DNA of 64,000 nt from Actinomycetota bacterium (lineage in GTDB: Bacteria > Actinomycetota > Thermoleophilia > Gaiellales > Gaiellaceae), in contig VAWW01000016.1 in the NCBI GenBank assembly GCA_005884575.1, positions 1 to 64,000 of the forward strand, read 5' to 3'. Position 1 is the stretch's first letter. Each line of letters begins with the position of its first letter. Shown here piece after piece: positions 39,653 to 51,127 of this stretch. A model generated the notes under the pieces. It had not been told where the DNA came from, did not search any database, and saw nothing but the letters and a program-made list of their open reading frames with translations. A program made the translations under genes and the position numbers.

Positions 39653-40666
39653 TCAGAAGCCGAGCAGGCGGACTTCCTCGCGCCGTTCGCGCGCGAAGAA
39701 CTGGATCCCGTCGACGAAGCGCACCCAGTTGCAGCGGGTGCACATGACCACCGAGTGCGTCCGAGCGCTGTCGGCGAGGAAGCGGACACCGCGCAGCAGG
39801 TCGCCGTTCGAGACGCCGGTGGCAGCGACGATCGGCTCGCCGGGAGCGAGGTCGTCGATCGTGAAGACCCGCGCGTAGTCCTCGATCCCGACCTCGCGGA
39901 GCTGCTCGATCTCGCCGCGCGTCGTCGGCCAGAACTGTGCCTGCAGCCCGCCGCCGAGGCAGCGCAGCGCGGCCGCCGCGAGGACCGCCTGACGGGTCCC
40001 GCCGACGCCGATCGCGAGGTGGTCGTTCGTCCCGCGCACCGCGGCTGAGATCGACGCGGTCACGTCGCCGTCCTGGATCAGCTTGATCCGGGCGCCGGCG
40101 GCGCGGATCTCCTCGATCAGGTCGTGGTGGCGCGGCCGGTCGAGGACGATCGTCGTCACGTCGTTGACGCGGCGCCCGAACGCGTCCGCAATCGCCTGGA
40201 TGTTGTCCGCGACCGAGCGGCCGAGATCGATCGCGTCGCGTGCGCGCGGCCCGACGGCCATCTTCCGCATGTACATGCTCGGCAGGCTCATCAGCGAGCC
40301 CGGCTCGCCGACGGCGATCATCGACATCGCACCGTAGCCGCCGCGCGCGACGACGCCCCGTCCCTCGAGCGGGTCGAGCGCGAGGTCTACTTCCGTCCCG
40401 CCGGCGCCGACGATCGAGTCGGTCTCCAGCATCTTCGCGTCGTCGCCGGCGCCGATCACGACACGTCCACGGATCGGCAGGACGTCGAGCGCCTGCTTCA
40501 TCCCGTCGCAGGCAGCGTCCTCTGCCGCCTCCTGGTCGGCGCGGCCGAGCCAGCGCGCGCTCGCCAGCGCGGCGCGTTCCGTCGCCCGCAGGTACGACTG
40601 GCAGAGGCAGTGATGCTCGACGTTCGACTCGGTCGCGTGCTCTTCGAGCGGATGCGTCTCGGTCAT
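39653..40666 (-). CDS. GlpX-like phosphatase with altered metal-binding residues
   Basis: A 337-residue homologue of class II fructose-1,6-bisphosphatase. It aligns throughout with GlpX (ATERAALASARWLGRADQEA, LALDPLEGRGVVARGG, VGPRARDAIDLGRSVADNIQ, LDRPRHHDLIEEIRAAGARI, DGDVTASISAAVRGTNDHLA). Key residues differ: the family GEGE-x-DEAPML is GAGDDAKML here, DP-x-EGT is DPLEGR, and the Glu of GGAPEG is Gln (GGTRQA). Canonical FBPase activity is therefore doubtful. ATG overlaps the stop of the 2-phosphoglycerate kinase gene (ATGA), so it is the third gene of the cDPG operon; it may act on a phosphoglycerate or cDPG. Confidence 0.85.
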   Translation of the reverse strand: MTETHPLEEHATESNVEHHCLCQSYLRATERAALASARWLGRADQEAAEDAACDGMKQALDVLPIRGRVVIGAGDDAKMLETDSIVGAGGTEVDLALDPLEGRGVVARGGYGAMSMIAVGEPGSLMSLPSMYMRKMAVGPRARDAIDLGRSVADNIQAIADAFGRRVNDVTTIVLDRPRHHDLIEEIRAAGARIKLIQDGDVTASISAAVRGTNDHLAIGVGGTRQAVLAAAALRCLGGGLQAQFWPTTRGEIEQLREVGIEDYARVFTIDDLAPGEPIVAATGVSNGDLLRGVRFLADSARTHSVVMCTRCNWVRFVDGIQFFARERREEVRLLGF

Positions 40667-41577
40667 GCCACGTGCTCCCGCGCGCGCTCGGCGGCCGAGA
40701 CGACGAGCTCCATCACCTCGCCGGTCGCCCGCTCGACGTCCGCGTTCTCGACGATCGCGACACCGGTCTTGCGCGCACGTTCTGCGATGTACGTCTGGAT
40801 CCTCCGGATCTCGGCGAGATGATCGAGGTACTTCGAGCCCGCACGGCGCTCGTCCGAGACGATGTCGCGGATCAGGAAATGCGAGCGGTGATTCTCCGTG
40901 TCGGTGATGTGGAGGATGCATTCGATCACGAGCGCGCCCTCGATGCGCGGCAACATGCCCGGCACGAGGTGGATGCCCTCCAGCACCATCGACCAGCCCT
41001 CCTCGAGCGCGCGCTCGATCGACGCGTTCACACCGACGAGGACGTTGCGCGTCTGCTCGAGGAACCCGAGCAACGTCGGGTCGCCCGTCTCCTGCTCTTC
41101 CTCGGGAAGTCCGTGGCCCGCCTCGAAGCTCGAGTAGTGGATCGACGGCATGAACTCGCGCGAGAAGAACGCGCGCATCGTCTGGCGGACGAAGTCCGTC
41201 GACGTGACGCGCGTGATCCCGAGCCGGTGCGCGACCTCGGTCGCGACGGTCGACTTGCCGGTGCCCGTCGCGCCGCCGACGAGGATGATCACCGGCAGGT
41301 CGAGCTCGCGCAGATCCTGGTAGCGTCGTAGCTGGCGCACCGTCTCCGTGCCCTCCACCTCGCCGAGGATCTCGATCGCGAGCTCGTCGAGCCGTTCGCG
41401 GTCCGCGGTCTCGGCGCCCTTCGCGGCGAGGTCGTCCTCGACGCGACGAGCGAGCTCGTACGCGCGCTGCGGCGCGACGCCGACGGCCATCAGCGCACGG
41501 GCCATCATCCCCTTCGAAAACGGCAGTCCGTGCTCGCCGCCGAGCGGCAGCGGATCACTGCGCCGCGGCTGGCTCAC
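40663..41577 (-). CDS. pgk2: 2-phosphoglycerate kinase
   Basis: A 304-residue kinase with an N-terminal ATP-cone-like domain (LPFSKGMMARALMAVGVAPQ, RAYELARRVEDDLAAKG) followed by a P-loop kinase domain with Walker A GGATGTGKSTVATEVAHRLG, then TSTDFVRQTMRAFFSREFMP, MVLEGIHLVPGMLPRIEG and HFLIRDIVSDERRAGSKYLD. This is the architecture of methanogen 2-phosphoglycerate kinase, which makes 2,3-diphosphoglycerate for cyclic 2,3-DPG. GTG 41577 overlaps the cpgS stop (GTGA). Its place after cpgS supports the assignment. Confidence 0.85.
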   Translation of the reverse strand: MSQPRRSDPLPLGGEHGLPFSKGMMARALMAVGVAPQRAYELARRVEDDLAAKGAETADRERLDELAIEILGEVEGTETVRQLRRYQDLRELDLPVIILVGGATGTGKSTVATEVAHRLGITRVTSTDFVRQTMRAFFSREFMPSIHYSSFEAGHGLPEEEQETGDPTLLGFLEQTRNVLVGVNASIERALEEGWSMVLEGIHLVPGMLPRIEGALVIECILHITDTENHRSHFLIRDIVSDERRAGSKYLDHLAEIRRIQTYIAERARKTGVAIVENADVERATGEVMELVVSAAERAREHVA

Positions 41578-42740
41578 GCGGGCACCCCGATCCGGCCGAG
41601 CAGCGCCTCGTCCAGTTCCGGCGCGACGACCTCGTTGTCGGCGAGCACGACGTGGGCGCCGCGCGCGAGCGCGGCTTCGGCGACGACGTCGATCGCCGCG
41701 GCCTTGAGCTCCACCAGGTACACCTCGGCCTCGATCGTCTGCAGATCCTCGCGCAGCGCGCGACGGTTCGCCAGGTTCCTCGACACCGCGACGACCTCGG
41801 CGTCGAGGTGCTCGGTCGGCGCGGGGCCTGTGGTGAAGACCGCGACCCGGCGCCCGGCGAGCGGCTCGGCCGGCTCGAGCCGGAGCTCGGCACGGACGAT
41901 CGGCACGTCCGTCAGCTCGCGGACGGCGTCCTCGTCGCCGTCGCCGGTGAAGACGACGAGGTCGGAGACGAGAACCCGGTAGGCGTCCAGGCCCTCGTGG
42001 ACGGCGTCGCCCCGCGTGACGAGAATCCGCAGGTCGACCTCGATCGGCGGGATCGCCGCGCCGCTGCCGTCGAAGACGACGACGTCCGGATGCCGCGCCG
42101 CTGCGAGCAGCGCCCCTTCGCGCACATTCGACGAGACCGTCACGCCGGCGAGCCCGCCGCCCGCCCGGCGGCAGCCGATCGTCGGAACGCGGGCTAGGGC
42201 GGCCGTCTCCAGGTAGTCAGACGCGGCGTGGCGGCCGGAGCGCGCAAGGGCGACGAGCTCCTCGATCGTGGGCGGCGTCTCGGCGATCTCCGGATCACGC
42301 GGTCCGCCGCGGCCCATCGAGACCACGACGACGTCGCGGTCACGGGCGAGGAGCCGCGCGACGTGGCCGGTCACGGCCGTCTTGCCGACGCGCTTCCCGG
42401 TCCCGATCACGGCGACCGACGGCAACGGGAACGACTCGTAGGCCGGCGGCTCGAAGCGGAAGTCGGCGCCGACATACGGCAGGCCGAGCGCGAGCGCGCG
42501 GCTCGCCCAGAGAAAGCGGCGGCGCGGGCCGAGCACCGGCTCGTCCGAGAGGTCGAAGACGACGTCGGCCTCGACGGCGTCCAGCGACTGCACCAGCGGC
42601 ACGCCGTACTCTTCCCCGCCCCGGATCTTCTCCGTCCCGCCGACAAGGATCGCGCCGACGACGTCGTATGGGAGCGCGGCGAGAGCCTCGCGCACCACGG
42701 GCGCGTAGTGCTCCCCGTCGATCAACGCGACCGCCCTCAC
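41574..42740 (-). CDS. cpgS: Cyclic 2,3-diphosphoglycerate synthetase
   Basis: A 388-residue P-loop protein of the cDPG synthetase family: VRAVALIDGEHYAPVVREAL, YDVVGAILVGGTEKIRGGEE, DLSDEPVLGPRRRFLWASRA, nucleotide site VAVIGTGKRVGKTAVTGHVA, VVSMGRGGPRDPEIAE and a C-terminal domain ending DNEVVAPELDEALLGRIG. In hyperthermophilic methanogens the enzyme closes 2,3-DPG into the cyclic diphosphate with ATP. The coupled 2-phosphoglycerate kinase makes the assignment convincing. GTG 42740 fits the family N-terminus; the frame above it lies in an inverted repeat. First gene of a three-gene operon. Confidence 0.82.
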   Translation of the reverse strand: MRAVALIDGEHYAPVVREALAALPYDVVGAILVGGTEKIRGGEEYGVPLVQSLDAVEADVVFDLSDEPVLGPRRRFLWASRALALGLPYVGADFRFEPPAYESFPLPSVAVIGTGKRVGKTAVTGHVARLLARDRDVVVVSMGRGGPRDPEIAETPPTIEELVALARSGRHAASDYLETAALARVPTIGCRRAGGGLAGVTVSSNVREGALLAAARHPDVVVFDGSGAAIPPIEVDLRILVTRGDAVHEGLDAYRVLVSDLVVFTGDGDEDAVRELTDVPIVRAELRLEPAEPLAGRRVAVFTTGPAPTEHLDAEVVAVSRNLANRRALREDLQTIEAEVYLVELKAAAIDVVAEAALARGAHVVLADNEVVAPELDEALLGRIGVPA

Positions 42741-42793
42741 GTCCCTGGCCGCCTCTAGCGAGCGCGCCGCGGAGCGGCGCTCCGCGAAAGGCT

Positions 42794-42873
42794 GGCGCCC
42801 GTGGGCGCACGCCGCTCTCCGGGCCCGTACTGGCTCGTACTGTGCCCTCCGGCGTCGCACGCCCACGGGCGCC
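42794..42873. repeat. 14-bp inverted repeat upstream of cpgS
   Basis: GGCGCCCGTGGGCG at 42794-42807 is the exact reverse complement of 42860-42873, with 52 bases between. The pair lies between the phosphodiesterase gene and cpgS, both on the minus strand, so it can act as a terminator for the first or a leader structure of the cpgS operon. Confidence 0.65.
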
Positions 42874-42891
42874 CCAGGAACGTGAGATTTC

Positions 42892-43707
42892 TCATTGCCC
42901 GCGCGTCGTGACCTCGTCCTCGATCCGCCCCGTGTATTTCTCGAACGCGAGCGTGTCGGTCGAGAACTGGATGATCCGTTCCTGGCCGTGGAACGGATGG
43001 CGCCGCCAGACGTCGACGTGCGCGTCGGAGACCTCGATCACGTTGTAACAGGGCCGCGTGTTGCCGCGGAGCCGCTGCGACGAGACCGTTCCCGCGTTGA
43101 CGATGAACAGATCCTCGAGCCGCCACGCGTACGGCACGTGCTTGTGCCCAGAGAGGACGAGGTGGACGCCCGCGCGCTGCAGGCACTCGATCGCGTCGCC
43201 GGCGTCGTAGACGACGTTCCGCTCGCGCCCGGTGCCGGGGACCGGCAGCAAGTGGTGGTGCAGCACGAAGATCCGGAACTCCGCCGGCTCCGCCGCGAAC
43301 TGCTCCTCGATCCAGCGGTAGCGGCCGCGCCCGATCTGCCCGTGGTCGAGATCCGGCTCCGTCGAATCGACCGCGACGACCGTCACGCCGCCGACGCGCA
43401 GCACGGAGTTCCGCTCGCCGAACAGCTCCTCGAAGTGGACGTAGCCGACGTTCCGGGAGTCGTGGTTGCCCGGAATGACGACGACCGATTGGCAGTCGAT
43501 CCGGTCGAGGTAGCTCCTCGCGAGCTCGTACTCCTCCTTGAAGCCGAAGGTCGTCAGGTCGCCCGAGCAGATGACGATCTCCGGACCGATGTCGTTGATC
43601 TCCGAGATCGCGCGCTCGAGCAGATTCGGCAGGAAGTACTGCTTCCCGCAGTGGAGATCCGAGAGCTGGACGATCGTGAACGGCTCGCCGTTGCGGCCCC
43701 GCGGCAT
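42892..43707 (-). CDS. Calcineurin-like metallophosphoesterase (CpdA-like)
   Basis: A 271-residue phosphoesterase with the five metal-binding blocks: IVQLSDLHCGKQYF, VICSGDLTTFG, VIPGNHDSRN, VLHHHLLPVPGTG and LVLSGHKHVPYAW. The closest class is the 3',5'-cyclic-nucleotide phosphodiesterase CpdA group, but members also act on other phosphodiesters. ATG 43707. The 72-base gap to the divergent nuclease-fold gene must hold both promoters. Confidence 0.88.
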   Translation of the reverse strand: MPRGRNGEPFTIVQLSDLHCGKQYFLPNLLERAISEINDIGPEIVICSGDLTTFGFKEEYELARSYLDRIDCQSVVVIPGNHDSRNVGYVHFEELFGERNSVLRVGGVTVVAVDSTEPDLDHGQIGRGRYRWIEEQFAAEPAEFRIFVLHHHLLPVPGTGRERNVVYDAGDAIECLQRAGVHLVLSGHKHVPYAWRLEDLFIVNAGTVSSQRLRGNTRPCYNVIEVSDAHVDVWRRHPFHGQERIIQFSTDTLAFEKYTGRIEDEVTTRGQ

Positions 43708-43779: not shown

Positions 43780-44145
43780 ATGCTGGAAACGCCGGTTGTC
43801 CAGGCATATTGCGGGGAGGCTCCTCCCCGCTTTGCCGACGCCGCGGAGCTGGAGTGCGCGAAGGTCCTCGACTTCTACGGCCTGCCGTGGCAGTACGAGC
43901 CGCGGACGTTCGTGCTGGAGGAGGACGCAGAGGGCCGCACGATCGAGGCCTTCACGCCCGACTTCTACCTGCCCGAGCAGGACCTCTACGTCGAGATCAC
44001 GATGATGAAGCAGTCGCTCGTGACCCGGAAGAACCGCAAGCTGCGGAAGCTCCGCGACCGCTATCCGGACGTCAACGTCAAGCTCTTCTACAAGCGCGAC
44101 GTGGCGCGCCTGGCCGAGCGATTCAAGCTCCCGATCGCCTCATAG
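43780..44145 (+). CDS. Small PD-(D/E)XK nuclease-fold protein
   Basis: A 121-residue protein. ELECAKVLDFYGLPWQYEPR, then EAFTPDFYLPEQDLYVEITM follow the PD-(D/E)XK layout: a helix with Glu, the strand motif TPDFYLP, then a second strand ending VEIT, where the usual ExK Lys is Thr; a Lys occurs three residues on (MMKQ). The rest is basic (RKNRKLRKLRDRYPDVNVKL). Nuclease activity is therefore uncertain. ATG 43780. It stands just before an HPRT gene; the meaning of this pairing is unknown. Confidence 0.7.
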   Translation: MLETPVVQAYCGEAPPRFADAAELECAKVLDFYGLPWQYEPRTFVLEEDAEGRTIEAFTPDFYLPEQDLYVEITMMKQSLVTRKNRKLRKLRDRYPDVNVKLFYKRDVARLAERFKLPIAS

Positions 44146-50924: not shown

Positions 50925-51038
50925 GCCGACGATTCTACCGCCGCGCGGCTCGCGCCTCTGGCGCCACGCTGGGCGTGCGCCGCCGGAGCGGACAGTGCTC
51001 TAGCACGGCCGCGGAGAGCGGCGTGCGGTCAGCGTGGC

Positions 51039-51110
51039 GAGGCCGTGCTGGACGGCGTCCGCCGCCGGGAGGCCGTGCTGGACGGCGGCTCCGCCGCCGG
51101 GAGGCACGGC
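51039..51110. repeat. 30-base tandem repeat with nested hairpins
   Basis: GAGGCCGTGCTGGACGGCG at 51039-51057 recurs at 51069-51087 (period 30). The second copy also forms hairpins: GGCGGC-TCC-GCCGCC (51084-51098) inside GCCGTGC/GCACGGC (51072-51078 with 51104-51110). It lies in the 203-base gap between the small gene at 51128 and ccmE, both minus strand. Confidence 0.65.
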
Positions 51111-51127
51111 CGGCCAGTGGCGCGAGG

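Follow-up and report, generated by a model that had tools for sequence, protein, structure and literature searches.

A predicted operon for cyclic 2,3-diphosphoglycerate turnover, with a candidate hydrolase and a degenerate GlpX-like partner, in Actinomycetota

Results

The cpgS locus comprises four tandem genes and a structured element

We analysed a stretch of 64,000 nucleotides (positions 1 to 64,000 of contig VAWW01000016.1; hereafter the window) derived from a genome of 4.16 Mb that is 91% complete. On its minus strand, open reading frames (ORFs) for a CpgS-like, a 2-phosphoglycerate kinase (2PGK)-like and a GlpX-like protein are arranged in tandem, with neighbours overlapping by four bases, and their coordinates confirm the overlapping genes of the original prediction. 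The latter had described a three-gene operon; all three genes are present, but a fourth gene upstream (42892-43707), encoding a metallophosphoesterase, had been overlooked. The locus contains the following features:

42892..43707, minus strand: calcineurin-like metallophosphoesterase, 271 aa, first gene of the operon (PF00149, motifs and synteny)
42736..42896, minus strand: dispersed structured intercistronic element (R1 match, minimum free energy (MFE) z-score and paired changes)
41574..42740, minus strand: CpgS, predicted cyclic 2,3-diphosphoglycerate synthetase, 388 aa, GTG start (phmmer, Foldseek and residues)
41577-41574, minus strand: overlap of CpgS and 2PGK, 4 bases, GTGA
40663..41577, minus strand: predicted 2-phosphoglycerate kinase, 304 aa, GTG start, weak N-terminal ATP-cone match (NCBIfam PRK04220)
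40666-40663, minus strand: overlap of 2PGK and GlpX-like, 4 bases, ATGA
39653..40666, minus strand: class II fructose-1,6-bisphosphatase (FBPase; GlpX)-like protein, ATG start, degraded catalytic site (PF03320 and residue comparison)

The closest relatives of the window's CpgS stem from Thermoleophilia/Gaiellales-type metagenome-assembled genomes. Some close-relative isolate names point to palsa permafrost, Chersky and soil—habitats read from the names—and the host is apparently a soil actinobacterium, non-thermophilic as judged by its relatives. Since the cpgS-2pgk-glpX order recurs in nearly all Gaiellales loci having enough flanking sequence, it is not a matter of chance. Both the operon and its flanking genes are syntenic in relatives, ruling out chance or contamination as its source.

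CpgS retains active-site residues of cyclic 2,3-diphosphoglycerate synthetase

The original prediction of a cyclic 2,3-diphosphoglycerate (cDPG) synthetase-like protein was borne out by homology, fold and active-site residues alike. In phmmer searches, CpgS aligned at full length with the cDPG synthetase of Methanothermus fervidus (PDB 8ORK; E=9e-66, ~41% identity), the match spanning residues 44-415 of a longer ORF, and full-length matches to 8ORK/8ORU and 9SXB ranged from E=9e-66 to 2e-63. This homology takes in the N-terminal domain that is unique to cDPG synthetases. The longer ORF (start 42866) was rejected as the gene model: because its 42 initial codons lie within a dispersed repeat, we took the GTG at 42740 as the start of CpgS. 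As for the structure prediction proposed as a check, an AlphaFold2 model (mean pLDDT 89) returned 8ORU/8ORK as the sole full-length matches in the PDB (Foldseek; 8ORU, E=8e-35, TM 0.87), followed by LpxK P-loop kinases as the next-best folds.

In the M. fervidus enzyme, contacts to substrate, metal, charge and nucleotide involve K145, R146, E45, T150, D208, K149, K406 and E404, with E45 being supplied by the other protomer (PMC10690619). Residues E37, K38, K116, R117, K120, T121, D175, E344 and K346 of the window's CpgS correspond to M. fervidus E45, K46, K145, R146, K149, T150, D208, E404 and K406, and these nine 2,3-diphosphoglycerate (2,3-DPG), Mg, charge or ATP residues are invariant in an 86-row alignment, gaps in truncated rows aside. 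Variation is confined to peripheral ATP contacts, such as the ATP-pocket residue E305, which is not conserved and is a glycine in the window. We also tested for the case that would contradict the assignment—an unrelated P-loop GTPase devoid of the active-site residues—and did not find it. In homology and residues, CpgS thus matches cDPG synthetase (EC 6.5.1.9), the activity predicted for it.

In a tree of CpgS sequences, the five archaeal members were separated from all Actinomycetota (SH-aLRT 99); this tree lacks an independent root and therefore gives no direction of transfer. A search for CpgS on plasmids returned no match.

The neighbouring gene encodes a predicted 2-phosphoglycerate kinase

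The second gene had been predicted to encode a 2PGK with an ATP-cone domain. Among profile models, those for 2PGK scored it highest (NCBIfam PRK04220, 269 bits, E=4.5e-80; PRK12337, 267 bits), as compared to 91 bits for the mevalonate-3-phosphate 5-kinase model. Its score nonetheless stays below the NCBIfam equivalog cut-off (269 vs 343 bits), which is why we call the window copy 2PGK-like and read its function from context, and the ATP-cone match is weak (23.8 bits against a Pfam cut-off of 25.8). The protein bears the P-loop GGATGTGKS and shares 33 near-invariant columns with both an Altiarchaeota copy and the copies of one actinobacterial family, f20. The f20 copies mostly exceed the 343-bit cut-off, reaching up to 386 bits, and the 2PGK family is therefore genuine in Actinomycetota. 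2PGK also occurs in Thermus and Deinococcus relatives, and a search for solved structures found no full-length relative. Despite its score under the curated cut-off, the 2PGK assignment, as judged from sequence, is well supported.

The two genes co-occur across Actinomycetota

The survey of gene co-occurrence called for by the original prediction gave a clear answer. In a sample of 396 Actinomycetota genomes drawn evenly across the phylum, CpgS was present in 200, about half of the species sampled. A strong 2PGK match (E below about 1e-30) was found in 194 of the 200 genomes with CpgS as opposed to 4 of the 196 without (Fisher p about 1e-99, uncorrected for relatedness), and genes of the cDPG pathway are therefore common in bacteria. 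Many of these CpgS genes have presumably already been labelled by automated databases. Of a set of 84 genomes, in which family f20 is under-represented, 78 carried 2PGK on the strand of cpgS and directly downstream of it, at 64-518 bp. The other six comprised five f20 genomes and one with cpgS and 2PGK on different contigs. A single Altiarchaeota locus was inspected, and there cpgS and 2PGK adjoin on opposite strands. Archaeal sampling is thin, given that CpgS was found in only 2 of 29 genomes of the Altiarchaeota, and methanogen CpgS is represented by two PDB sequences.

These observations bear on which product the pair makes. CpgS and 2PGK might act on a different bisphosphate, in which case the product would be not cDPG but a similar cyclic phosphoanhydride or some other phosphorylated acid. 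The identity of only ~41% between CpgS and the characterised enzyme, the glycine in place of E305, the sub-threshold score of 2PGK and the inclusion of mevalonate-3-phosphate 5-kinase in the wider family would all be compatible with such a shift. However, all reported 2,3-DPG or Mg contacts are invariant in CpgS, and a near-perfect co-occurrence is what sequential steps on one metabolite would produce, making a different substrate unlikely. A second possibility is that 2PGK supplies 2,3-DPG as phosphoglycerate mutase cofactor, with CpgS being incidental. 2,3-DPG is a known cofactor of the dependent mutase (dPGM), and 2PGK does occur in Thermus and Deinococcus relatives. Yet none of 12 CpgS genomes had a dPGM match above the curated threshold, which leaves no obvious need for 2,3-DPG as GpmA cofactor in them, and 2PGK is rare wherever CpgS is missing; we consider this explanation highly improbable. 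From homology, fold, an invariant active site, co-occurrence and adjacency, the originally proposed route from 2-phosphoglycerate via 2,3-DPG to cDPG is thus well supported at the gene level, and cDPG is probably what 2PGK and CpgS of this operon would make.

A metallophosphoesterase is the most constant neighbour of CpgS

The protein encoded upstream of cpgS belongs to PF00149 (E=5e-19, 69.8 bits against a cut-off of 21.5), and its metal motifs DxH, GD, GNHD, HH and GHxH are invariant in 82 aligned copies. In 84 of 86 actinobacterial loci, drawn from several families, the gene immediately preceding cpgS, in the same orientation, encodes this protein (51-87% identity), making it the most constant neighbour of CpgS. 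Loci of family f20 retain this arrangement even though 2PGK is located elsewhere, and in 26 relatives' loci (some representing the same genome twice) the metallophosphoesterase gene overlaps cpgS by four bases. No such neighbour was seen in the archaeal loci examined.

Given this genomic context, we propose the metallophosphoesterase as the best candidate for a cDPG (or 2,3-DPG) hydrolase, a proposal whose chances we put at about even. A cDPG hydrolase has been described biochemically in Methanothermobacter, in a review that names no gene (PMC1224877). The competing view, to which we assign somewhat less than an even chance, is that the protein is a phosphodiesterase of general or nucleotide specificity whose co-transcription has another cause; the other genes could still make cDPG in that case. 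The protein's best characterised, if distant, relatives are indeed phosphodiesterases such as Rv0805 (E about 1e-9), CpdA/SpdA models match as well, and the linkage to cpgS does not extend to the archaeal loci examined. Against this view, no other neighbour is as tightly linked to CpgS across the phylum, and the protein is the best conserved of the three Gaiellales operon proteins compared, with a mean identity to the window of 78%, as opposed to 65% for CpgS and 60% for 2PGK.

The GlpX-like protein has lost catalytic residues of class II FBPases

The third gene of the original prediction had been described as a GlpX-like phosphatase. If it were a working fructose-1,6-bisphosphatase, the locus could be read as a glycolysis/gluconeogenesis cluster. 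Family and fold would fit: the protein matches PF03320 with 352 bits and TIGR00330 just above its cut-off (259.7 vs 259.3 bits), and its predicted structure adopts the class II FBPase fold (Foldseek E=4e-42). However, when compared to the M. tuberculosis enzyme, whose catalytic-site residues have been listed and whose T84A variant is inactive (PMC5892879), the window protein shows the replacements T84->R, D27->E, E51->A and E208->Q. In the Francisella enzyme, Thr89 is the proposed nucleophile (PMC10289334). Asp79 and Glu82 are retained, but the set of catalytic and metal-site residues of class II FBPases is incomplete. Thr84 was lost in all 33 operon copies examined (20 Gaiellales and 13 f20) and Glu208 in Gaiellales, whereas the phosphate anchor is intact at Y114, R159 and R161 throughout, with D183 missing from a single copy. 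In addition, a canonical GlpX with the motifs GEGEKDEAPML and DPLEGTR is encoded elsewhere in the same genome, and the canonical and operon forms separate in a tree to which a long-branch warning applies.

With the catalytic threonine and metal ligands gone in spite of matching fold and family, the idea of a functional FBPase is not supported, and a gluconeogenic cluster is very improbable. We instead regard the operon protein as probably a non-FBPase paralogue, as its residues suggest, and probably a binding or regulatory protein. Its gene is absent in many CpgS genomes, which marks it as an accessory part.

The element upstream of cpgS is dispersed in the genome

One end of the intercistronic element (42736-42896; ~155 nt) holds the upstream gene's stop codon, and the opposite end holds the GTG with which cpgS begins. 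This copy matched R1 with 156 bits and folds far better than shuffled sequences (MFE z=-6.9), and 29 of 56 pairs in the element's consensus show two-sided changes with pairing kept. The source genome holds 19 copies by blastn and 26 by covariance model, and copies were found in 22 of 61 genomes searched, all of a single family. No identity was found in Rfam. In 16 of 34 copies, the element bridges a stop codon and the next start codon, as compared to 2.9% of random placements. The cpgS site of many relatives is a plain four-base overlap devoid of the element; only two other genomes' loci carry it there, one as a full (L010) and one as a short copy (L034), while two further loci (L032 and L035) retain apparent end remnants. 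Because the genes downstream of other copies are diverse, the element is not specific to cpgS, and a role as a dedicated cpgS regulator was mostly rejected. It has the appearance of a mobile or dispersed element that inserts where stop and start codons overlap and preserves both.

Discussion

We propose a four-gene operon for cDPG turnover in an actinobacterium that is non-thermophilic to judge by its relatives. In this model, 2PGK would phosphorylate 2-phosphoglycerate to 2,3-DPG, and CpgS would join the 2- and 3-phosphates in a cyclic phosphoanhydride at the expense of ATP. The metallophosphoesterase would most likely open cDPG (or dephosphorylate 2,3-DPG), so that carbon and phosphate re-enter glycolysis, while the GlpX-like protein, having lost FBPase catalysis and kept the phosphosugar anchor, would most likely serve as a regulator or scaffold that binds a (bis)phosphate. 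The sequences themselves show the homology, the conserved active site, the co-occurrence, the synteny and the loss of GlpX catalytic residues; from these we infer the activity of each of the four proteins in this organism, what the cycle does for the cell, and the parts played by the metallophosphoesterase and the GlpX-like protein. The full combination—cDPG widespread in ordinary Actinomycetota, the metallophosphoesterase as its hydrolase and the dead GlpX paralogue as a ligand sensor—appears rather doubtful.

The thermoprotectant role implied by the original prediction is not supported, the carriers being mesophiles and, apparently, permafrost bacteria. The permafrost or soil samples after which several close relatives are named speak against a function specific to heat; one tied to phosphate, energy or osmotic conditions would be a better fit. 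The cycle would most likely serve as a phosphate, energy or carbon buffer, or provide an osmotic or desiccation solute, rather than a heat protectant.

Should the predicted activities be correct, cDPG would be made by much of the Actinomycetota, and its main role could therefore not be heat protection. The operon further provides a concrete candidate for the gene of cDPG hydrolase, an activity documented from the 1990s onwards, with no gene for it found in the literature consulted, and offers mesophilic enzymes for the production of cDPG, an extremolyte of commercial interest. The finding, which goes beyond the original prediction, is an actinobacterial gene set predicted for cDPG, with a new candidate hydrolase and a degenerate GlpX partner; the literature we found treats cDPG as archaeal. 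The available portion of one report describes cDPG as exclusive to hyperthermophilic methanogens and includes no bacterial survey (PMC10690619). The solute literature on Rubrobacter does not mention cDPG, its chromatography was not aimed at this compound, and family f20 corresponds to Rubrobacteraceae only possibly.

With respect to known systems, the individual components can be compared as follows. The methanogen cDPG hydrolase is membrane-bound, whereas the actinobacterial metallophosphoesterase has no membrane segment evident by eye. With Rv0805 and CpdA-type phosphodiesterases it shares the calcineurin-like family and metal motifs, but the relationship is distant and the fixed linkage to cpgS suggests another substrate. 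The GlpX-like protein has the fold and the anchor (Y114, R159, R161, D183) of class II FBPases (PDB 6AYY, 7TXG), but unlike these has lost Thr84, Glu51 and Asp27, as well as Glu208 in Gaiellales. In thermophilic ammonia oxidisers, the available portions of two reports on Nitrosocaldus note cDPG synthetase genes (PMC5797428, PMC7819960), a gene-level occurrence outside methanogens like that of the actinobacterial set; these organisms, however, are archaeal and thermophilic, and the same portions describe no operon with a phosphoesterase. The closest parallel to the proposed route is the M. fervidus pathway of 2PGK and cDPG synthetase (PDB 8ORK/8ORU), with both enzymes, the fold, and the substrate and Mg residues in common; the actinobacterial set differs in being bacterial, apparently non-thermophilic, only ~41% identical and encoded in a single operon that also includes metallophosphoesterase and GlpX-like genes.

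A dispersed structured element at gene junctions

Between the metallophosphoesterase gene and cpgS (the predicted cyclic 2,3-diphosphoglycerate synthetase gene) lies a ~155-nt structured element, which occurs at ~26 places in the source genome and has a diverged second copy in the window:

42736-42896, (-) strand: structured element, dispersed, with strong predicted folding
50949-51126, (+) strand: structured element, diverged second copy (68 bits)

No Rfam family matched the element, which was confined to a single bacterial family among the 61 genomes searched. Many copies sit at a gene junction, spanning it from the upstream gene's stop codon to the downstream gene's start codon. At the site of the 42736-42896 copy, relatives lacking the element have a plain 4-base stop/start overlap, suggesting that it was inserted into operon overlaps with both codons retained.

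On seven contigs of genome G000, blastn alignments to the element were limited to its 3' 50-70 nt:

Loci L079-L081 and L085-L088 (G000 contigs C10, C35, C47, C58, C77, C128 and C130): 3'-only matches

Here too, most of the matches end at a GTG start codon. Since a covariance model lengthens several of them, they may represent diverged full copies.

Divergent neighbour and variant loci

Nearly every Gaiellales locus has, beside the operon, a conserved gene (62-79%) whose product has no Pfam match:

43780-44145, (+) strand, divergent from the operon: gene for a 121-aa protein

At another locus (L125; G296:C3:509615-510520), the match to the predicted 2-phosphoglycerate kinase (2PGK) runs through one in-frame TAG, which may reflect a sequencing error or gene decay. 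A variant cpgS/GlpX-like arrangement concerns loci L119-L122 and those of a further actinobacterial family, f20 (L092-L117). Canonical GlpX was absent from all four f20 genomes checked; in this family, 2PGK lies far from cpgS, and the GlpX-like gene follows cpgS, with EPVEGL replacing DPIDGT.
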